Made by a program: the position numbers and the translations under genes. Below the pieces are notes generated by a model, which was given only the letters and a program-made list of their open reading frames with translations, ran no database searches and had not been told where the DNA came from. A stretch of 64,000 bases of DNA. Source: Alphaproteobacteria bacterium (GTDB lineage Bacteria; Pseudomonadota; Alphaproteobacteria; Micropepsales; Micropepsaceae). The stretch covers positions 1 to 64,000 of the forward strand of contig JAGWNK010000017.1 of assembly GCA_028871345.1 (NCBI GenBank), written 5' to 3'. How positions within the stretch are numbered: position 1 is the first letter of the stretch; every line of letters starts with the position of its first letter. Below are positions 31,248 to 44,980 of this stretch, piece by piece.

Positions 31248-31340
31248 TGGCGGACAGGGAGGGATTCGAACCCTCGGAACGGCTCATCACCGTTCACACA
31301 CTTTCCAGGCGTGCGCCTTCAGCCACTCGGCCACCTGTCC
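31248..31340 (-). tRNA. tRNA-Ser (GGA)
   Basis: The 93-nt minus-strand sequence folds into a serine tRNA: 7-bp acceptor stem GGACAGG/CCTGTCC, D arm GGCCGAGTGGC, anticodon loop CTGGAAA with anticodon GGA, a long variable arm (GAACGGTGATGAGCCGTTC) and a T arm GAGGG-TTCGAAT-CCCTC. The 3' CCA is encoded. It stands alone between the CDF gene and a small membrane-protein gene. Confidence 0.97.
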
Positions 31341-32216: not shown

Positions 32217-32516
32217 TCAGTTCGCCTGGGCCTGGCGGTTCTTCTCCCGATAGATCAGGTACAGATTGCGCGCGTACACCACGAGGCCGCCGCCTTGGGC
32301 CAGCAGGAACGGCAGGCCGACCTGCCCGAGATGATAGGCATAGATCAGCGTGATCGTGCCGCCACCCAGGCTGAAATACCAGAAGGCGATCGGGATCACG
32401 CTGCGGCCTTCCATTTCGCTCTTGAACAGCTGCACGAAGAAACGTGACGCGAACAACGCCTGGCCGATGAAGCCCACGGCAAGCCAGATATGGTCGGTCG
32501 TGAGCGATAGCCCCAT
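32217..32516 (-). CDS. LAB_N domain membrane protein (lipid A biosynthesis type)
   Basis: 99 residues from the ATG at 32516, with GAAGGAG 8 bases upstream; a GTG two codons earlier overlaps the preceding stop. Three membrane helices and the motifs IWLAVGFIGQALFASRFFVQLFKSE, IPIAFWYFSLGG and LLAQGGGLVVYARNLYLI match the lipid-A-disaccharide synthase N-terminal domain family, here as a stand-alone protein. Stand-alone LAB_N proteins typically sit next to GT2 and ArnT-like glycosyltransferases, as here, and are thought to help modify lipid-linked sugars. It directly follows the GT2 gene. Confidence 0.88.
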   Translation of the reverse strand: MGLSLTTDHIWLAVGFIGQALFASRFFVQLFKSEMEGRSVIPIAFWYFSLGGGTITLIYAYHLGQVGLPFLLAQGGGLVVYARNLYLIYREKNRQAQAN

Positions 32517-32518
32517 AG

Positions 32519-33235
32519 TCACAACTCCTTCGCTTCCGTGCGGCCTCTATGGCGCCGCTGCAGCCAGCGCACGCCCATCAAGTCGTTGATGCCGACCAGC
32601 ATGCGGTTCAGGTTGTTGTACTTTGATCGCCCGCTCAAGCGCGGCCTGTGGTTCACGCCGACGTAGCGCACCTCATAGCCTTCACGCAGCATCATGGTGA
32701 TGAGGAAGCGGTGGATGTGATCGAAATAGGGCAGGGCCAGAAAGGCCTCTCGACGAAAGGCCTTCAGACCGCAGCCGCTGTCCGTCGCGCCGTCCTTGAG
32801 CAACCATTGCCGGACGCCATTGCCGACGCGCGAGGCGATCCGCTTGCTGGCGGTGTCCTTGCGCTTGCGGCGCACGCCGGCCACCAGTCCGAGCATGGGA
32901 CCGCCGCGGCGCAACTCCGAGATCAAGCTGGGAATGTCGGCCGGATCGTTCTGGCCGTCTCCGTCCAGGGTCACGACCAGTTCGCTGTTGGCCGCGCGCA
33001 CGCCGCTGCGCACGGCGCGGCTTTGTCCACGGTTGTTGGCATGCCGGATGACCCTCAGACCTGCGATATCGGCCTTGAGTGCAAGCAGGGCTGCGTCCGT
33101 GCCGTCCGTCGAGCCGTCGTCCACGAAGATGATCTCGGCATCCTCGCCGGCGACCGCCGCGGCGATCTCGCGGGCCAGCGGGCCGACGTTGCCGGCTTCA
33201 TCCTTCACAGGCACGACCACGGACAGGGCTGGCAT
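32519..33235 (-). CDS. GT2 glycosyltransferase (polyprenyl-phosphate type)
   Basis: 238 residues. GT-A fold with the nucleotide-sugar motif VVPVKDEAGNV near the N-terminus, IIFVDDGSTDGT, the metal-binding TLDGDGQNDP, and GCGLKAFRRE after it. The sequence resembles dolichol/undecaprenyl-phosphate mannosyl or glucosyl transferases (DPM1/ArnC class) but lacks C-terminal membrane helices. It probably loads a sugar on undecaprenyl phosphate for the divergent ArnT-like enzyme at 33342. The adjacent LAB_N gene forms an operon with it. Confidence 0.9.
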   Translation of the reverse strand: MPALSVVVPVKDEAGNVGPLAREIAAAVAGEDAEIIFVDDGSTDGTDAALLALKADIAGLRVIRHANNRGQSRAVRSGVRAANSELVVTLDGDGQNDPADIPSLISELRRGGPMLGLVAGVRRKRKDTASKRIASRVGNGVRQWLLKDGATDSGCGLKAFRREAFLALPYFDHIHRFLITMMLREGYEVRYVGVNHRPRLSGRSKYNNLNRMLVGINDLMGVRWLQRRHRGRTEAKEL

Positions 33236-33341
33236 CGGTTCCGTTCGATTCCGTCGTAGACTAGACTGGTTCGGCCCAACCGGTCGAATGGGCGCGCGGC
33301 CTTATACAAGGCCCCCTGCGGCGACACAAAAGGCAATCCTC

Positions 33342-35048
33342 ATGAACAGTTCCGTTGCACCGGGCGCCGCTGGGTTCTTGCACAGGGCGCTGCGGCACCC
33401 GCGCCTGCTGCTGACCGTCCTGTGCCTTGCGCTGTGGGCGCCAGGCGCACTCACCTTGCCTGCGCTGGACCGTGACGAAAGCCGGTTTGCCCAGGCTTCC
33501 AAGCAGATGCTGGAGACCGGCAATTACATCGACATCCGCTTCGGAGCCGTCCCCCGCTACAAGAAGCCCGCTGGCATCTACTGGCTCCAAGCGGCCGCCA
33601 CAGAGCTCGCAGGCATGGGCGAGCGCACCCATATCTGGACCTACCGGCTCCCCTCACTTCTGGGCGCGCTGGTCGCGGTGCTGCTGACCTTCTGGTGCGC
33701 AACCGCCTTTCTCGGCAGCGAGACAGCACTGCTCGCGGCGGGCCTGCTGGGAACGACCTTGCTGCTGTCGGCCGAGGCCAGCATCGCCACGACGGATGCC
33801 GTGCTGCTCGCCTGTGTGCTCGGCATCCAGGGCATGCTGCTGCGGGTCTATCTCGGTGCCAGGGAATCCGGCCCTCCCGTCGGCATCGGCTTGATCATTG
33901 CGGGGTGGGTGGCATTCGCCTGCGGCATTCTGGTGAAGGGGCCGGTCGTCATCGGTGTCGCGGTCCTGACCCTCGCCGGACTGGCCGTCTGGGATCGCGA
34001 GGCCCGCTGGCTGCGACACACCCGGCCGCTTGTCGGTTTGCTAGTCGTCCTTATCCTTGTCGCGCCCTGGCTGGTCGCCATCGGCGTCCAAAGCCATGGT
34101 CACTTCTTCCAGCAATCGCTGGGCCACGATTTCGCTGCCAAGCTCGAGGGCGGGCAGGAATCCCACGGCGCGCCGCCGGGCTACTTCCTCGTTCTCGCCA
34201 ACTTCTCCTTCTGGCCCGCCACGCTCTTCCTGGCGCCAGCCTTGGCGCGGGCTCTAGCCGGTCGGTCGAAGCCGGCCGTCCGCTTCCTTCTGATCTGGGC
34301 GGGGACCTGCTGGATCATGTTCGAGGCCGTGCCGACCAAGCTGCCCCATTACATCCTGCCCATCTATCCGGCGCTCGCGATCCTGGCGGCTATGTGGGTC
34401 GTCGCCCCGCGGCAGGGCGCCTCGCGCCCCGAACGCATCCTGACGTGGGTCGCCCTCCTGCAGTTCGGTCTGGTCGCCGCTGTTTTCGCTGTGGCACCGA
34501 TCCTGCTGACTCATCTGTACGGCGCCGCGACTCAGTGGTGGCTTGTCGCGCCACTCGCCGTTTTTGCGGCGCTGGCCGTATCGGCCATCGTGGCCTTCAT
34601 CCGGCAGGCGCGCCTTGCGGCCGTAGCCTGTGCGGTTGCCTCCGCCCTGGTTCTCTATCCGGTTCTCACCGTAGCGACCGCACCGCGGCTTGATCGCCTC
34701 TGGGTCAGCGAGCGTGCAGCCGCGGCCGAACGGGCGCTGGCAAGGCCCGGCGATCCGCCGCCATCGCTGGCCGGCTATGTCGAGCCCAGCCTCGTCTTCC
34801 TGCTGGGAACCGCGACGCGCCAGACGGACGCCCGGGGGGCGGCGGATGCCGGGGCGGCCCAAGGAGGCTTGGCGCTGGTCGAGGACCGGGAACGTTCAAC
34901 ATTCGTGGCGCGATTGGCAGAACTCGAAGCCGACGCCGCCGAGGTCGGCTCGGTGGAGGGCTTCAATTACTCACGCGGCCGACCCGTGCGAATCCGAATC
35001 TACCGGGTCACGCCCGTGACGGACGAGCCGACGCCGCCCGCGGAGTGA
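33342..35048 (+). CDS. ArnT-like membrane glycosyltransferase (GT39/PMT fold)
   Basis: 568 residues from the ATG at 33342; upstream in-frame codons run into the opposite-strand GT2 gene. About twelve membrane helices. The first periplasmic loop carries the conserved acidic DRDESRFAQASKQMLETGNY and the PRYKKPAGIYWLQ segment, both hallmarks of ArnT and related lipid-linked sugar transferases. It should move a sugar from an undecaprenyl-phosphate carrier to lipid A or another envelope acceptor in the periplasm. It is divergent from the GT2/LAB_N pair, with which it likely forms one functional set. Confidence 0.9.
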   Translation: MNSSVAPGAAGFLHRALRHPRLLLTVLCLALWAPGALTLPALDRDESRFAQASKQMLETGNYIDIRFGAVPRYKKPAGIYWLQAAATELAGMGERTHIWTYRLPSLLGALVAVLLTFWCATAFLGSETALLAAGLLGTTLLLSAEASIATTDAVLLACVLGIQGMLLRVYLGARESGPPVGIGLIIAGWVAFACGILVKGPVVIGVAVLTLAGLAVWDREARWLRHTRPLVGLLVVLILVAPWLVAIGVQSHGHFFQQSLGHDFAAKLEGGQESHGAPPGYFLVLANFSFWPATLFLAPALARALAGRSKPAVRFLLIWAGTCWIMFEAVPTKLPHYILPIYPALAILAAMWVVAPRQGASRPERILTWVALLQFGLVAAVFAVAPILLTHLYGAATQWWLVAPLAVFAALAVSAIVAFIRQARLAAVACAVASALVLYPVLTVATAPRLDRLWVSERAAAAERALARPGDPPPSLAGYVEPSLVFLLGTATRQTDARGAADAGAAQGGLALVEDRERSTFVARLAELEADAAEVGSVEGFNYSRGRPVRIRIYRVTPVTDEPTPPAE

Positions 35049-35470: not shown

Positions 35471-36766
35471 ATGAGTCTCCAAGCACTACGGGGGCGCGAG
35501 CTTAAGCCTCCGTTACGGTCGGTCCGCCGACAGGCCACGCCCTCCTCGATCAACCAATCCAGCCAAGTCACCAGCATCGCGGGCGCGCAGTCCCGCCCCA
35601 CGCTGCGCTTCCCGGTCAATCCCGAGACCAGGGCCTTCTATCGGCAGTTCTATCCGGGCACCTCGAGCATCGAGTGGAACGACTGGCGCTGGCAGATGCG
35701 CACGCGTATTCGCGGCCTCGACGATCTCGCCCGTATCTTCGCCCTGTGCGCCGACGAGCGGTCGGCGGTCGAGCGGCACGAAGGCGCATTGCCGGTGGGA
35801 ATTACGCCGTATTACGCGAGCCTGATGGGGCTCGACGATCCGCACGAGGCGCTGCGCCGTACCCACATCATGACGGGCGGCGAATATGTCCGCAGCGTCG
35901 GCGAAGCCGACGATCCGCTCGGCGAAGACCACGACACGGTCGTACCAGGCCTCGTTCACCGCTATCCCGATCGCGTGTTGTTCCTGACGACGGGCACCTG
36001 CTCCACCTATTGCCGCTATTGCACGCGCGCCCGCGTTGTCGGCAACCCCGGCGGCGAATACCAGTTCTCGGTCAAGCAATGGGAGAAGGCGCTCGCCTAT
36101 CTCGAAGTCCACACCGAAGTGCGCGACGTGCTGCTCTCGGGCGGCGACCCGCTGACCATCGGGGATGACAAGCTCGACTGGCTTCTCACCCGGCTGCGGG
36201 CCATGAAGCACATCGAGTTCCTCCGTATCGGTACGAAAATACCGGTAGTGTTGCCACAGCGCATCACGAAGGACTTCGCCAAGATGCTGAAGAAGCATCA
36301 CCCCCTCTGGATGAGCATCCACGTCACCCACCCTGCGGAATTGACCGACGAGGTGACGGAGTCGACGGCCCGGCTGGCCGATGCCGGCATCCCTCTGGGC
36401 TCACAGACGGTGCTGCTCAAGGACATCAACGACGACCCCAAGGTGATGGTCCCGCTGATGCAGGGCCTGCTGAAGCGCCGGGTGAAGCCCTATTACCTCT
36501 ACCAGTGCGACCCGATCAGGGGTTCGGCCCATTTCCGCACCAATGTGGAGAAGGGGCTCGAGATCATCTCGGCGCTGCGCGGCCATACGACAGGCTACGC
36601 CACCCCCATGTTCTGCATCGATGCACCCGGCGGGGGCGGCAAGATCCAATTGGCGCCTGATCCGGTGGTCGGCCGGGACGGCGACGACCTCTTGCTGCGC
36701 AATTTCGAAGGCAAGGTCTATCGCTACCCCGACCCCGGCGGTTCGCTGGGGCGCACGACAGGGTAG
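35471..36766 (+). CDS. kamA: Lysine 2,3-aminomutase-type radical SAM enzyme
   Basis: 431 residues. The radical SAM cluster motif is Cys177-x3-Cys181-x2-Cys184 (CSTYCRYC). The N-terminal WNDWRWQMRTRI and the LSGGDPL, RIGTKIPVVLPQRIT and HVTHPAE segments are those of lysine 2,3-aminomutase. The PLP lysine is Lys391 in PGGGGK. Asp347 (in QCDP) and Asp384 (in IDAPGGGGK) correspond, with identical spacing, to Asp293 and Asp330 of the clostridial enzyme, which bind the lysine side-chain amine; this supports lysine as substrate and beta-lysine as product. No beta-lysine acetyltransferase is nearby. It heads a four-gene operon with two ATP-grasp ligases and a Cys-rich protein. Confidence 0.9.
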   Translation: MSLQALRGRELKPPLRSVRRQATPSSINQSSQVTSIAGAQSRPTLRFPVNPETRAFYRQFYPGTSSIEWNDWRWQMRTRIRGLDDLARIFALCADERSAVERHEGALPVGITPYYASLMGLDDPHEALRRTHIMTGGEYVRSVGEADDPLGEDHDTVVPGLVHRYPDRVLFLTTGTCSTYCRYCTRARVVGNPGGEYQFSVKQWEKALAYLEVHTEVRDVLLSGGDPLTIGDDKLDWLLTRLRAMKHIEFLRIGTKIPVVLPQRITKDFAKMLKKHHPLWMSIHVTHPAELTDEVTESTARLADAGIPLGSQTVLLKDINDDPKVMVPLMQGLLKRRVKPYYLYQCDPIRGSAHFRTNVEKGLEIISALRGHTTGYATPMFCIDAPGGGGKIQLAPDPVVGRDGDDLLLRNFEGKVYRYPDPGGSLGRTTG

Positions 36767-36777
36767 GCAGGCATCCC

Positions 36778-37782
36778 ATGCGTATCGGGGTAACCTACGA
36801 CCTCAGGGCCGACTATCTCGCTTTGGGTTACAGCGAGGAAGAGACGGCGGAATTCGACAGCCCCGTCACGATCGAGGCGATCTGTGTGGCGCTGTCGGCT
36901 TTGGGCCACGATCCCGTTCGTATCGGAGGGGTTCGGGCCCTGGCCGAACGGCTGGTGGGCGGAGAGCGCTGGGATGCGGTCTTCAATTTCTGCGAGGGCC
37001 TGAAGGGCGTCTCGCGGGAGGCGCAGGCCCCGGCGCTGCTGGAGGCCTATGACATCCCCTATGTCTTCTCCGATCCGCTGACGCTCGCCTTGTCGCTCGA
37101 CAAGGCGATGGCGAAGCGGGTGGTGCGGGACGCAGGCGTGCCCACCGCCGACTTTGCCGTGATCGAGTGCCTCGGGGACATCGCCAAGGTCGCATTGCCT
37201 TATCCTCTCTTCTTGAAACCGGTGGCCGAAGGCTCGGGCAAAGGCGTCGGCCGGCGCTCCAAGGTCACCGGTGCGGCGGGGCTGCGCGAAGTGGCGGCGG
37301 AGCTGCTGGAACGGTTCGCCCAGCCGGTCCTGGCCGAGACCTTCCTATCGGGGCGAGAATTCACGGTGGGCATCACCGGCACGGGCGGCGAGGCCAAGGT
37401 CCTCGGCGTCACCGAAATCGTGCCCAAGGCCGGTTTCGTCGGGGACGGTTACGGCCTTGAGAACAAGCAAGACGGCTGGGAGGAGAGGCTCGACGTCGTG
37501 CCGGCGCCCCCGGCCGAAGGCAAGGCGGCCGGCAAGGTCGCATTGGCGGCGTGGCGCGCCTTGCGCTGCCGCGACGGCGGGCGCATCGACATCCGCTGCG
37601 ACGGCGACGGCCGGCCGCACTTCATCGAGGTCAACCCGCTGGCGGGACTGCGCCCCGAGCACTCCGACCTCTGCTTCATCGCCAAGTATGCCGGGCTGAG
37701 CTATCAGGACCTTATCGGCCGCATCATGGCCTCCTTTCTGAAACGCCATCCGGAGCTCGCACGGCGCCGGGCTGCGGCCTGA
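36778..37782 (+). CDS. ATP-grasp ligase, D-Ala-D-Ala ligase-like (first)
   Basis: 334 residues, starting 11 bases after the aminomutase stop. The N-terminal FNFCEGLKGVSREAQAPALLEAYDIPYV matches the Ddl-type pre-ATP-grasp domain. Further on are the ATP-binding KPVAEGSGKGVGRRSKV, and near the C-terminus the metal-binding FIEVNPLAGLRPEHSDL. It should activate a carboxylate as acyl phosphate and join it to an amine. True Ddl genes sit with mur/fts genes, so this is a specialised paralog. The context suggests it uses the aminomutase product as one substrate; that is inference. Confidence 0.87.
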   Translation: MRIGVTYDLRADYLALGYSEEETAEFDSPVTIEAICVALSALGHDPVRIGGVRALAERLVGGERWDAVFNFCEGLKGVSREAQAPALLEAYDIPYVFSDPLTLALSLDKAMAKRVVRDAGVPTADFAVIECLGDIAKVALPYPLFLKPVAEGSGKGVGRRSKVTGAAGLREVAAELLERFAQPVLAETFLSGREFTVGITGTGGEAKVLGVTEIVPKAGFVGDGYGLENKQDGWEERLDVVPAPPAEGKAAGKVALAAWRALRCRDGGRIDIRCDGDGRPHFIEVNPLAGLRPEHSDLCFIAKYAGLSYQDLIGRIMASFLKRHPELARRRAAA

Positions 37783-37785
37783 GCG

Positions 37786-38751
37786 ATGCGCATTCTTGTC
37801 CTCCATTCCGACGTGTCGGCAGATGCGCCTGCGGAAGACCAGGACACGATCATTGCCGCCAGGGCCGTTTCCGGCGCGCTACAATCCCGCGGGCACGCGG
37901 CGCCGCTGGCGCCCTTCAAGCCGGACGAGACGGCATTGCGGGCCGTCATACGGGCCGAGAAGCCCGACGTGGTCTTCAATCTGGTCGAGGGCATCGAGGG
38001 CAAGGGGGCGCTGGCCCACGTCGCCCCGACGCTCCTGGAACGGATCGGCGTCCCCTATACAGGGACCGGCGCGGACCCGCTGATCCTCACCTGCGACAAG
38101 CCGCGGACGAAGCGGGCGCTGCGCCAGTCCGGATTGCCGACGCCCGACTGGGCCGAAGGCCCCGACTGGACGGGTCTCTCGGCCGGCCGCTGGATCGTCA
38201 AGTCGGCGGACGAGGACGCCTCCGTCGGGCTCGACGACGCCTCGGTGGTCGATGCTTCCGGCGTCGTGGCGAGGGCCGTGCTCAGCGCCGAGCGGTTCGG
38301 CGGACGCTGGTTCGCCGAGTGCTATGTCGACGGGCGCGAGTTCAACATTGCGGTGCTCGAGGAAAACCACGGTCCGCGCGTCCTGCCCATGGCCGAGATG
38401 ACCTTCGAGGAATGGCCGCGGCACCGGCCGCGTATTGTGGGCTACATCGCCAAATGGGACGACACCTCGTTCGAATCGACTCGCACGGTGCGCCAGTTCG
38501 GCGTCGAGCGGCGCGAGCCCGTCCTGGCCCATGTCCTTCGCGGCCTGGCCGAGCGGGCGTGGCAGTTGTTCGACCTACGGGGAACGGCGAGGGTCGATTT
38601 CCGGGTCGACGGCACGGGTCAAGCGCTCATCCTCGAGATCAACCCCAATCCGGGAATCGCGCCGGATGCGGGGTTCGCTGCCGCCGCGCAGTGCGCGGGC
38701 CTTTCTTATCCAGAACTTATCGAGAAGATCGTCCTTGAGGCGATGCGATGA
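37786..38751 (+). CDS. ATP-grasp ligase, D-Ala-D-Ala ligase-like (second)
   Basis: 321 residues, starting 3 bases after the first ligase. The same overall fold is evident (VVFNLVEGIEGKGALAHVAPTLLERIGVPYTGT, then KSADEDASVGLDDASVV in place of the glycine-rich loop, and LILEINPNPGIAPDAGFAAAA with the metal ligands). It is clearly diverged from the first ligase, so the two are not redundant copies and may act in sequence on different bonds. A Walker-type ATP site is replaced by the ATP-grasp loops. The gene overlaps the next by 4 bp (ATGA). Confidence 0.87.
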   Translation: MRILVLHSDVSADAPAEDQDTIIAARAVSGALQSRGHAAPLAPFKPDETALRAVIRAEKPDVVFNLVEGIEGKGALAHVAPTLLERIGVPYTGTGADPLILTCDKPRTKRALRQSGLPTPDWAEGPDWTGLSAGRWIVKSADEDASVGLDDASVVDASGVVARAVLSAERFGGRWFAECYVDGREFNIAVLEENHGPRVLPMAEMTFEEWPRHRPRIVGYIAKWDDTSFESTRTVRQFGVERREPVLAHVLRGLAERAWQLFDLRGTARVDFRVDGTGQALILEINPNPGIAPDAGFAAAAQCAGLSYPELIEKIVLEAMR

Positions 38752-39374
38752 ACGTCGTCGGGCTCGGCCGCGCGTTCCAGTCGATTCTCGGCGCCCCCGT
38801 GATCCGTGCCGTCGACATGCGCATCTTCGCGCTGCGTTATTTCACCCGCTGCATGGCGTGCGACTTCTGCAGCGACCAGTGCTGCAACTACGGGGTCGAC
38901 GTCGATCGCGGGAACATGGACCGCCTGCGCGCGCTCGGTCCGGGCTTTGAAGCTTTCGTGGGCTCGCCTCCATCGGAATGGTTCACGGGCGATCTGCACG
39001 ACGACGTCGAATTTCCCTCCGGTGCGTACGGCCGCACCCGCACCGTCTACGGCAAGTGCGTCTTTGCCGACCGCCAGGGCCGTGGCTGCCGCATCCACGC
39101 CTGGTGCCTGGACCACGGCCTGGATTATCACGACTACAAGCCGCTGGTGAGCACGCTCTTCCCCGTCACCTTCGAGCAGGGCGTCCTGGTGCCTTCACCG
39201 GAAGTGGTCGACGGCACGCTCCTCTGCTCTGGCGACGGCCCGGCGCTCTACGACGGCGTGCGCGGCGAACTCGGCCATTACTTCGGCGAGGCGTTCGTGG
39301 CGCTGCTCGACGGGCTCAGGTCATCGGTTCGATCGGAAGCTCGACGTTCAGCCGCCGTTCCCGCCAGGCGATGA
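38748..39374 (+). CDS. Cys-rich DUF3109/YkgJ-like protein
   Basis: 208 residues with the start overlapping the ligase stop (ATGA). Nine cysteines: Cys35, 38, 41, 45 and 46 in CMACDFCSDQCC, then KCVF, GRGC, HAWC and LLCSG. The layout (GVDVDRGNM, GRGCRIHAWCLDHGLDYHDYKPLVSTLFPVTF) resembles DUF3109/YkgJ-type cysteine-cluster proteins, which are thought to bind an Fe-S cluster or zinc. It is the last gene of the aminomutase operon. The final 20 or so residues are encoded in a 59-bp overlap with the convergent EamA gene and may not be conserved. Confidence 0.75.
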   Translation: MNVVGLGRAFQSILGAPVIRAVDMRIFALRYFTRCMACDFCSDQCCNYGVDVDRGNMDRLRALGPGFEAFVGSPPSEWFTGDLHDDVEFPSGAYGRTRTVYGKCVFADRQGRGCRIHAWCLDHGLDYHDYKPLVSTLFPVTFEQGVLVPSPEVVDGTLLCSGDGPALYDGVRGELGHYFGEAFVALLDGLRSSVRSEARRSAAVPARR

Positions 39375-40218
39375 AGACGCCCGCCACGATCACGATGCCG
39401 GCGCCCCACAGCACCAAGGCGGCCGGCATCTCTCCGAACACGAAGTAACCGACGATCATCGCCCAAACCATCGCCACATAATCGAAAGGCGCCAGGAGCG
39501 ACGGCTCGGCGAAGCGGTAGCTGTAGGTCATGAAGATCTGTCCCGTGCCGCCGACTAGCCCGCAGATCACCAGCCAGAATGCCGGCCAGAACGACAAGGC
39601 GGCATGATACCAGATCATCACGACCGCACCGGCCAGGGCGCAGGCCGACATGAAATAGAACACGATGGCTTCGCTGCGCTCGGTCGTGCTCATTTGCCGG
39701 ATCCAAACCACGACCACTGCCGAAAGGAACGAGAACAGCAGCGCATAGGTGACGCCCCGCGACAGGTGCAGGGCGACCAGCGCCGCAAGCCCGCCGTGCG
39801 GCTCGATCATCAACAGCACGCCGAGGAATCCGATCAAGACCGCCGACCAGCGGTAGCGCCCCACTTTTTCGTGCAGGAAGAGCGCCGCCAGCATCACGGC
39901 GAAGATCGGCTGCATGAAGCTGAAGGCGGTGACCGTGGCCAGCGGCAGCAGCTTCAAGGCCGTGAAATTCGTGAACATGGCCGCCACGCCGACGGCGGAA
40001 CGAACCACGTGGTAGGACGGCCTTTCCGTGCGGATGGCCTCGAGCGGCCCGACCGTGAATGTGGTCCACACCAGCAGCGGCACCAGCGCGAAGAAGCCGC
40101 GGAAGAACACGACCTCTCCGGTCGGCACAGGGCCCGCCAGCTTGATCGCCGCGTACATCAGCGTGAACGCGATGCTCTGCGCGATCTTGAGGGATATGGC
40201 GAGCGGGATGTTCTTCAC
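39316..40218 (-). CDS. EamA/DMT family permease
   Basis: 300 residues from the GTG at 40218; much longer open frames run back over the porin gene in another frame. Ten membrane helices in two EamA halves, with RGFFALVPLLVWTTF early and LLAPFDYVAMVWAMIVGYFVFGEMP in the second half. This is the RhaT/RarD-like drug/metabolite branch; substrates are usually amino acids or small metabolites. It is third in an operon after a znuA-like gene and a porin. Its 3' end overlaps the Cys-rich gene on the other strand by 59 bp. Confidence 0.87.
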   Translation of the reverse strand: MKNIPLAISLKIAQSIAFTLMYAAIKLAGPVPTGEVVFFRGFFALVPLLVWTTFTVGPLEAIRTERPSYHVVRSAVGVAAMFTNFTALKLLPLATVTAFSFMQPIFAVMLAALFLHEKVGRYRWSAVLIGFLGVLLMIEPHGGLAALVALHLSRGVTYALLFSFLSAVVVVWIRQMSTTERSEAIVFYFMSACALAGAVVMIWYHAALSFWPAFWLVICGLVGGTGQIFMTYSYRFAEPSLLAPFDYVAMVWAMIVGYFVFGEMPAALVLWGAGIVIVAGVFIAWRERRLNVELPIEPMT

Positions 40219-40232
40219 GTCGGCGGTCCCGC

Positions 40233-41555
40233 TCAAAACTCCATGTGCAGGCGGAAGGAGAGGATCGACACCGGGCCGCGGTCGCGGTTGTAGGCCGGGT
40301 TGGCGACGAACTGGTAATCGGTGCCCGCCGTGACGCCGTCTGTCAATCGGACATCGTAGATCGCCTCGATGACGTCTTCCGTGCCGTAACGGGGCAGCCG
40401 GCCGTCGCCGATCAGGACGCCGATGCCGCCGGCAGCGAAGTAGGCGCGGGCAGCCGACGACAGCGCGTTGGCGACGAAGGCGATGCCTGCCGTGTCGTCC
40501 GGCCTCAGCCAGGCCGCGCCTTTGAGCGACAGGCCCGCGGCGATCGAACGGTTGATCTCGGTGAACTCGTAGGCCTCCCGGCTGCCGTCGTTCATGCCGG
40601 CGCGCAGGAAGGCGCCGAGATTGTCGGTCAACGCCTGCTCGATGTTCAGCGACGCGCCGGCCCGCGATGCGGGGCGCCGCACCAGGGCCGTATCCGGCAC
40701 GGCATGGGTGAGGGCCGCGCGGTCGAGCGCGTCGCGATAGGAACCCATGCGCCCGCGATTGAGGAAGGCGAGAAGCCTGATCTTCCCCGGCCTGTTCCAG
40801 GCCTTGTATGTCTTCTCCGCTTCCGTCACGAGCTCGTACTGGCCAAATCCGCGTTGCAGCTGCGTCGAATTCGGCACCCGCGACAGATCGAACAGGCCTG
40901 CGCGCCAGGTCCAGGCGCCCTGGGTCAGTTCCGCCGTTATCCCATAGCTGTAGCCCCAGGCATCGGCGGCGTAGTCGAAGGTCCCGGCGTCGATCACCGC
41001 CCAGTTGAGGAAATCGGACTTGGGGTCGTGGGCGTAGGTGTTGGTGTCGAAGACATCCGTCACCGAGTACTTGCCCAAGGTTACGATCAGGTGATCGGCC
41101 GTGCGCGTCCCCGCCAGCTGATTGGCGTCGGCTTCGACGCCCTCGGTGTCGCCGCCCAGGTCGAAGGTCTGCCGGAAGAACAGGCGCTGCAGCCGGAAAT
41201 AGGGCGCACTGCTTCCGACCTTGTAGGCTTCTCCGCTCGAGAACCCGGCGAGCCCCGTCGTGTCGCTCAAGCCGAACCCCTGGTCGATCTCGGGGTCGGC
41301 ATAGGCCTCGCCGCCGTCCCACAGCCGCACGCCTGCGAACAGCGTGGCATCGAAGGTCTCGTTGCCGCGGCTTCCCGGATCCAGGCTGTTGGGACCGGCA
41401 TAGGGCGAGCGGAAGGCGGGATGGTATTGCTCGACGAAGGTCGCCTGGCCATGCACCGACCAGGTTTCCGTGTCGGCCCGCGCGCCCGCGGCCGCCAGCG
41501 CCAGAAGCGGCAGAATCCACCGAGCGCCGTTCTGCGGGGCGAAATTCTTCATCAT
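40233..41555 (-). CDS. OprB-type porin
   Basis: 440 residues with a signal peptide (WILPLLALAAAGARA) and a predicted 16-18 strand outer-membrane barrel ending in the aromatic residue F (SFRLHMEF). Sequences such as SDFLNWAVIDAGTFDYAADAWGYSYGITAEL match the carbohydrate-selective porin OprB family. The gene lies between a znuA-like binding-protein gene and an EamA permease gene on the same strand (85 and 14 bp gaps), so it might serve metal rather than sugar uptake. The first two codons are both ATG; neither has a good ribosome site. Confidence 0.85.
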   Translation of the reverse strand: MMKNFAPQNGARWILPLLALAAAGARADTETWSVHGQATFVEQYHPAFRSPYAGPNSLDPGSRGNETFDATLFAGVRLWDGGEAYADPEIDQGFGLSDTTGLAGFSSGEAYKVGSSAPYFRLQRLFFRQTFDLGGDTEGVEADANQLAGTRTADHLIVTLGKYSVTDVFDTNTYAHDPKSDFLNWAVIDAGTFDYAADAWGYSYGITAELTQGAWTWRAGLFDLSRVPNSTQLQRGFGQYELVTEAEKTYKAWNRPGKIRLLAFLNRGRMGSYRDALDRAALTHAVPDTALVRRPASRAGASLNIEQALTDNLGAFLRAGMNDGSREAYEFTEINRSIAAGLSLKGAAWLRPDDTAGIAFVANALSSAARAYFAAGGIGVLIGDGRLPRYGTEDVIEAIYDVRLTDGVTAGTDYQFVANPAYNRDRGPVSILSFRLHMEF

Positions 41556-44434: not shown

Positions 44435-44980
44435 TCAGCGCGGCGCCAGGACCATCATCATCTGGCGGCCCTCGATCTTGGGCCATTGTTCCATCTTGGC
44501 GAAGGTTTCCGTGTCCTTCTGGATGCGGTTGAGCAGTTCCATGCCCAGGTGCTGGTGGGCCATTTCGCGGCCACGGAAGCGCAGCGTCACCTTGACCTTG
44601 TCGCCTTCGTCGAAGAATCGGCGCATCGAACGCATCTTCACGTCGTAATCGTGATCGTCGATGGTGGGGCGCATCTTGATCTCCTTGATCTCGATGACCT
44701 TCTGCTTCTTGCGAGCCTCGGCGGCCTTCTTCTGCTGTTCGTATTTGAACTTGCCGTAGTCCATCAGCTTGACGACGGGCGGGCGGGCCTCGGGCGAGAC
44801 TTCGACCAAGTCGAAGCCTTTCTCCTCCGCGATGGCGCGGGCCTCCTCGGTGCCGATTTCCCCGTATTTGTGGCCGTCATCGCCGATCAGAAGAATGGTG
44901 CGGGCGAAGATCTCCTCGTTGACGCGCGGGCCGTCTTTAGCCGGCGCTGGCGCCTGGGATGCAAAACGTCTGGGAACTAT
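44435..44980 (-). CDS. infC: Translation initiation factor IF-3, read from an AUA codon
   Basis: 181 residues if translation starts at ATA (44980-44978), which has AAGGAGAGA 3-6 bases upstream and is directly followed by [23 protein letters not shown], the typical IF-3 N-terminus. No ATG, GTG or TTG in frame gives a complete N-terminal domain; the first TTG (44809) would delete it. Both domains are complete: [39 protein letters not shown] (N) and [44 protein letters not shown] (C). IF-3 rejects non-AUG starts, so a rare start codon gives autoregulation, as with the AUU of E. coli infC. It follows thrS on the same strand. Confidence 0.93.

Follow-up and report, generated by a model that had tools for sequence, protein, structure and literature searches.

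The 64,000-nucleotide window analyzed here (contig JAGWNK010000017.1, assembly GCA_028871345.1) comes from an alphaproteobacterium of the family Micropepsaceae. In this genome (3.9 Mb, 113 contigs, 99.94% complete), four open reading frames (ORFs) on the + strand at 35471-39374 place an aminomutase next to two ligases and a cysteine-rich protein. The first gene product, KamA (35471..36766, 431 aa), is a lysine 2,3-aminomutase-like enzyme of the radical S-adenosylmethionine (SAM)/pyridoxal phosphate (PLP) type. The second and third, LigA (36778..37782, 334 aa) and LigB (37786..38751, 321 aa), are putative ATP-grasp amide ligases of the D-alanine--D-alanine ligase (Ddl) superfamily, and the last (38748..39374, 208 aa) is a cysteine-cluster protein of the CxxCxxCC/FliB type. 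KamA and LigA are separated by 11 bp, LigA and LigB by 3 bp, and LigB overlaps the cysteine gene by 4 bp, an arrangement that the initial annotation had described and that the ORF coordinates confirm. The preceding gene stops at 35048 and the following gene lies on the opposite strand; therefore the four ORFs likely form a single operon. No sigma-70-like promoter was found near the operon, against an expectation of 0.5 in shuffled sequences. Judged by LigA similarity, the closest named relatives of the host are alphaproteobacterial metagenome-assembled genomes. A literature search of open-licence papers turned up none recognisably about this operon, which we do not claim to be unpublished; Iyer and colleagues reportedly surveyed ATP-grasp operons in 2009.

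KamA has the features of a lysine-type aminomutase. Residues 60-422 align with the L-lysine 2,3-aminomutase of Clostridium subterminale (AblA/KamA; PDB 2a5h, E 2.3e-117), the alignment reaching only residue 368 of that 416-residue chain. As first described from the DNA, the protein carries the CxxxCxxC motif of radical SAM enzymes (C177, C181, C184), the PLP lysine K391 and the aspartates D347 and D384 at a spacing of 37 residues, and both the residues themselves and the 2a5h alignment bear this out. We take the two aspartates to correspond to clostridial D293 and D330, the pair that binds the lysine side chain. The three cluster cysteines, the arginine two positions after them, both aspartates and the PLP lysine are shared with the clostridial enzyme and are identical in 75 of 75 operon KamA sequences. 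The best NCBIfam model is AblA (TIGR03820, 437.7 bits), which outscores those for glutamate, arginine and EpmB enzymes, and the protein also clears the wider KamA-family model TIGR00238 with 337.1 bits against a cut-off of 199.2. Because the residues, with the roles we assume for them, are identical in all 75 sequences, lysine is the expected substrate, and we rejected a glutamate 2,3-aminomutase specificity. KamA is thus predicted, with good confidence, to convert L-lysine to beta-lysine, though unlike the clostridial enzyme it is accompanied by ligases.

Both ligases match the C-terminal ATP-grasp domain of Ddl (PF07478; E 2.4e-24 for LigA and 4.4e-23 for LigB), and the AlphaFold2 model of LigA (predicted local distance difference test score 94.3) has the Ddl fold, the 50 PDB matches listed for it being Ddl or D-Ala:D-Lac ligases. 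Nine ATP, magnesium and catalytic positions of E. coli DdlB (K97, K144, E180, E187, K215, R255, D257, E270 and N272) are kept in 86 of 86 LigA and 70 of 70 LigB sequences, save for E270, which is kept in 68 of the 70 LigB. The domain matches and these retained residues uphold the assignment of both proteins to Ddl-type ATP-grasp enzymes. In contrast, H63, Y216 and L282 of DdlB, which we take to be substrate-site residues, are replaced. H63 is Glu in all 86 LigA and all 70 LigB; Y216 is Glu in 71 of 86 LigA and Trp in every LigB; and L282 is Asp in 81 of 86 LigA and Gly in every LigB. Both proteins have the look of functional amide ligases whose substrate sites have changed, and the partly more acidic site of LigA would suit a cationic substrate.

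Phylogeny separates the two ligases from Ddl and from each other. In a tree of 58 rows, LigA (21), LigB (22) and Ddl (15) form three clades, each with 100% bootstrap. A second tree that includes ligases from a second phylum (the one to which locus L095 belongs) recovers a Ddl clade (100/100), a LigA-like clade (98/90) and a LigB-like clade (100/95). A grouping with bona fide Ddl had been named at the outset as the result that would speak against a separate function; the ligases instead fall into clades of their own at 98-100% bootstrap. Of 16 genomes searched, 15 encode a Ddl above the model cut-off, and the window's genome is among them. The best NCBIfam models for both ligases are all Ddl models, with scores of 136 bits (LigA) and 112.5 bits (LigB) against a cut-off of 243, and automatic annotation is therefore likely to misname them. 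From 90 loci we kept 85 LigA, 69 LigB and 74 KamA rows, dropping ORFs outside the length ranges or cut by contig ends. Members of the alignments and trees were picked by hand (32 LigA, 28 LigB and 19 cysteine-protein rows). Ddl rows of over 330 residues were trimmed to their last 330 for the first tree; the second used 32 of 36 new ligase rows, four outside 300-400 residues being excluded and rows of 361-419 residues being trimmed to their last 345.

We then consider how widely the gene set is kept. One scan of named genomes, selected by LigA similarity, gave 80 loci, and those bearing the set are titled Alphaproteobacteria, Deltaproteobacteria, Bacteroidales, Planctomycetota/Phycisphaerae, Ignavibacteria and Bacillota. 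KamA is present in 73 of the 80 (counting a fragment in L098; contig ends truncate L062 and L106) and LigB in 76. Because KamA, LigA and LigB recur together across phyla, their linkage is more than chance. The window's phylum, sampled evenly with 398 genomes and searched for LigA at E up to 1e-40, agrees: LigA and close KamA (all at 2.2e-127 or better) occupy exactly the same 20 genomes, the window's own included, and no further KamA match is stronger than 2.0e-74. Setting the window's own genome aside, 17 of the remaining 19 have KamA no more than 1.5 kb from LigA; in one of the other two it is about 2 kb away with a gene between, and in the last it is on another contig. LigB was not seen within 1.5 kb in 10 of the 19, all of one family, although in one of these the contig stops short, and in one genome of this family (G130) no further Ddl-type match above 50 bits was found genome-wide. 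KamA-LigA therefore seems to be the smallest unit of the set. Loci L140, L141 and L143-L145, from one family of the window's phylum, have KamA and LigA without an adjoining LigB. Within the window's genus, LigA is found in 51 of 69 genomes. LigA searches against plasmids gave no match at 1e-30.

The second phylum gives a similar picture. Of its 198 sampled genomes, 70 encode a LigA relative and 108 a KamA (E up to 1e-80), and every one of the 70 LigA genomes is among those with KamA (log10 chance probability -25.3, assuming independent genomes, which they are not). The two genes are within 3 kb of each other in 48 genomes, 3-8 kb apart in 6 and elsewhere in 16. Gene order varies though the set is kept, KamA being last in L243 and L249. 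In L238-L241, genes that we labelled by eye as sensor-kinase-like, NtrC-like and short response-regulator-like lie between LigA and the KamA-LigB pair, and these two-component-type genes suggest dedicated regulation. An AsnC/Lrp-family regulator gene follows the GNAT acetyltransferase gene in the Bacteroidales loci L088 (10646-11152), L099 and L105, the family being assigned by a scan of the L088 copy.

What accompanies KamA and the ligases differs between lineages. A GNAT acetyltransferase is encoded in 47 of the 80 loci and a GNAT-deacetylase protein in 16, while 17 have no GNAT, deacetylase or cysteine gene; the region after LigB was inspected in 8 of these 17 and holds none of the three, and several others lie near a contig end. 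The L095 fusion protein joins a GNAT to a histone-deacetylase domain (PF00850, E 2.4e-75), and the five best PDB rows for its deacetylase half are acetylpolyamine amidohydrolases (best 6phr, E 5.4e-73). Unlike those enzymes, this deacetylase is fused to a GNAT and encoded with KamA and the ligases; it is absent from the window's operon. The fusion is found in 18 of the 198 second-phylum genomes, 17 of which have LigA and all 18 KamA (KamA compared by eye).

In the window the fourth gene is instead the cysteine protein. The initial annotation had called it DUF3109, which we could not reproduce: this family gave no Pfam match at E up to 5, and the best match is PF03692 (CxxCxxCC; E 0.0028), at 18.7 bits below the cut-off of 23. 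A relative in L064 passes PF03692 with 24.4 bits. Eight cysteines (C35, C38, C41, C45, C46, C104, C114 and C160) are invariant in 19 of 19 sequences. FliB is a SAM-dependent [4Fe-4S] lysine methyltransferase whose CX4CX3CC motif binds the [4Fe-4S] cluster (PMC8598068). The window protein shares with FliB and PF03692 a cluster of cysteines (C35, C38, C41, C45 and C46), but matches to the FliB model stay far below its cut-off: 13 of 19 cysteine proteins match weakly (E up to 0.1, best 1.3e-4), the L064 copy reaches 21 bits against a cut-off of 85, and the window copy is unmatched. Among PDB sequences, relatives of the family profile were at E 0.2 or worse; the structural model of the cysteine protein matched no PDB fold at E 0.001 or better, and a second look returned only KH domains (Z 2.3 and 2.1). 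It is a probable Fe-S (iron-sulfur) protein, and the part of electron or metal partner that the initial annotation gave it is hypothetical.

The cysteine gene is not a core member of the set. It occurs in 19 of the 80 loci, only alphaproteobacterial ones. A search of 100 relatives, 60 from the window's genus and 40 from elsewhere in the class (other orders or families), found it in 30, counting the window's own, and all 30 belong to that genus; in the 29 others LigB shares the locus. The expected co-occurrence of kamA, two ligases and this fourth gene thus held in part: KamA and LigA, mostly with LigB, are strongly linked across phyla, and the cysteine protein is no constant partner. Three loci (L062-L064) carry the GNAT and the cysteine gene together, and therefore the window's lineage has probably lost the GNAT.

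Based on this data, we propose that KamA and the ligases form a dedicated beta-lysine amide-ligase pathway, a reading that the gene linkage and residues make probable without making it secure. KamA would isomerise L-lysine to beta-lysine. LigA would then activate a carboxylate with ATP as the acyl phosphate and join it to an amine. We consider it likely that beta-lysine is one of the two partners, because KamA and LigA co-occur almost obligately and the substrate-site residues are altered. LigB, in the lineages that have it, would form a second amide bond, a prediction we hold almost as firmly. The amines of the product could be acetylated by the GNAT and, in some lineages, deacetylated by the acetylpolyamine-amidohydrolase-like enzyme; in the window's lineage, where one gene seems to have replaced the other, the probable Fe-S protein may take the place of the GNAT. 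For such tailoring by GNAT or cysteine protein we see even chances. The predicted product is a short, N-tailored, polyamine-like beta-lysine peptide or conjugate, which could serve as an osmolyte, a polyamine-like cation, a signalling molecule or a defence molecule. A bolder version is speculative and on present evidence unlikely to be right as a whole: a new class of pathway that makes polycationic beta-lysine oligomers without ribosome or nonribosomal peptide synthetase, reversibly acetylated by GNAT and an acetylpolyamine-type deacetylase, with one branch supplied with polyamines (arginine decarboxylase, agmatinase and a deoxyhypusine-synthase-like enzyme), and with the FliB-like Fe-S protein of the window modifying the product amine instead of a GNAT.

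Several observations weigh against the proposed pathway. The 437.7 bits of KamA in TIGR03820 are below the AblA equivalog cut-off of 525.4. LigA has other acidic residues near its N terminus, but the one that matches Ddl E15 shifts with the alignment; the acidic substitutions at Ddl positions 216 and 282 give way to Trp and Cys in the other LigA subclade, also in two KamA-adjacent members. Five of the 80 loci (L065, L066, L067, L099 and L105) have LigA without KamA though the contig extends, and L098 holds only the KamA fragment. In the second phylum, 10 of 77 genomes with close KamA (E up to 1e-110) have no LigA match, the other 67 having one. Lastly, in 7 of 20 further second-phylum loci, picked by hand and for the most part among the weaker LigA matches, a pyruvoyl arginine decarboxylase and not KamA lies upstream of the ligase pair (L244-L247, L250, L253 and L255; in L253 one ORF intervenes before the ligases). 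A ligase pair without KamA is itself a weaker argument against KamA than it appears, since a KamA match (E up to 1e-30) turned up in each of the 17 second-phylum genomes tested, including all 8 of the polyamine type (L252, where the contig ends, being counted by its ligases and downstream genes).

As to the role of the product, the same enzyme steps could yield an uncharged or zwitterionic beta-lysine dipeptide that serves as a compatible solute for osmotic protection. Such a dipeptide would be an extended relative of N-epsilon-acetyl-beta-lysine or N-acetylglutaminylglutamine amide. An aminomutase together with a GNAT, as in 47 of the 80 loci, recalls the AblA/AblB pair, whose product has been described as an osmolyte (PMC3543383). 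The pathways share an aminomutase as first enzyme and, in many lineages, an acetyltransferase, whereas ours adds one or two ATP-grasp ligases and the window's operon has no GNAT; no acetyltransferase is among the three genes after KamA in the window, although the AblB model was not searched genome-wide. N-acetylglutaminylglutamine amide synthesis also uses an ATP-grasp ligase and a GNAT to make an acetylated dipeptide, but is not known to involve an aminomutase, and against its model the L095 GNAT scores just 16.1 bits. A deacetylase, found in 16 of the 80 loci, is unexpected for a stable solute. Neither an osmotic regulator nor an RNA element came to light: in 8 loci scanned with Rfam the only hits were three tRNAs, with no riboswitch or other RNA control element. 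We think the solute reading unlikely.

The arginine decarboxylase loci raise the possibility that the chief reaction of LigA and LigB is the coupling of amino acids or beta-lysine to a polyamine, for example putrescine or agmatine. In these loci a polyamine gene precedes the ligase pair instead of KamA, and therefore a polyamine could be a substrate. An agmatinase-type gene is present in 5 of the same twenty loci and a deoxyhypusine-synthase-type gene in 4; representatives of these polyamine-type genes pass their family models, and the deacetylase partner in other loci is of the acetylpolyamine type. The pattern appeared in a single phylum, among loci chosen mostly for their weaker LigA matches, and all eight such genomes also have KamA, at another place in the genome. 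The ligases of these loci fall into the same LigA-like and LigB-like clades. No acetyltransferase was seen beside this KamA in nine loci (the eight polyamine-type ones and one other), inspected by eye from partial translations. Polyamine conjugation as the main function is, we think, quite improbable; the data suggest that beta-lysine and polyamine chemistry may be linked.

Attachment of beta-lysine to a protein or peptide as a tag, as in the modification of elongation factor P (EF-P), would have a precedent in EpmB, a KamA-family enzyme that serves EF-P in other bacteria. It had been stated that neither AblB nor EpmA, the usual partners of kamA, is present here, which is true of the operon: EpmA was not found beside the operon KamA. 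Elsewhere in the genome, on contig C55, an EpmA that passes its own model adjoins another KamA-family gene, 36% identical to the operon KamA and passing the AblA_like_2 model. EF-P modification is therefore probably covered by that pair, and EF-P is an unlikely target of the operon; both operon ligases are moreover of the Ddl type, whose known members use free amino acids, and the structure matches are mostly Ddl. We regard tagging as very unlikely. That LigA and LigB are D-Ala-D-Ala or other cell-wall ligases merely adjoining KamA, as the Ddl fold and catalytic residues might suggest, can practically be dismissed, given their separate clades, another Ddl above cut-off in the genome, the replaced substrate-site residues and the conserved linkage to KamA.

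If the proposed beta-lysine amide-ligase pathway is real, a beta-lysine-based small metabolite that is fairly common has so far escaped notice, and the family is a source of amide ligases that would accept a beta-amino acid. Since KamA and LigA almost always occur together, two purified proteins would suffice to test the first step directly.

Around the operon, an EamA-family transporter gene faces it from the - strand and is followed by an OprB porin gene (39316-41555); the EamA transporter cluster is present in 17 of the 80 loci. Just upstream, at 32217-35048, a LAB_N-domain gene and a family-2 glycosyltransferase gene (- strand) adjoin a PMT_2-domain gene (+ strand), possibly a lipid-glycosylation set. 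The ORF at 44435-44809 (- strand) resembles a C-terminal portion of translation initiation factor IF-3, whose complete gene probably begins at an unlisted start codon, and a tRNA-Ser gene (anticodon GGA) lies at 31248-31340 on the - strand.

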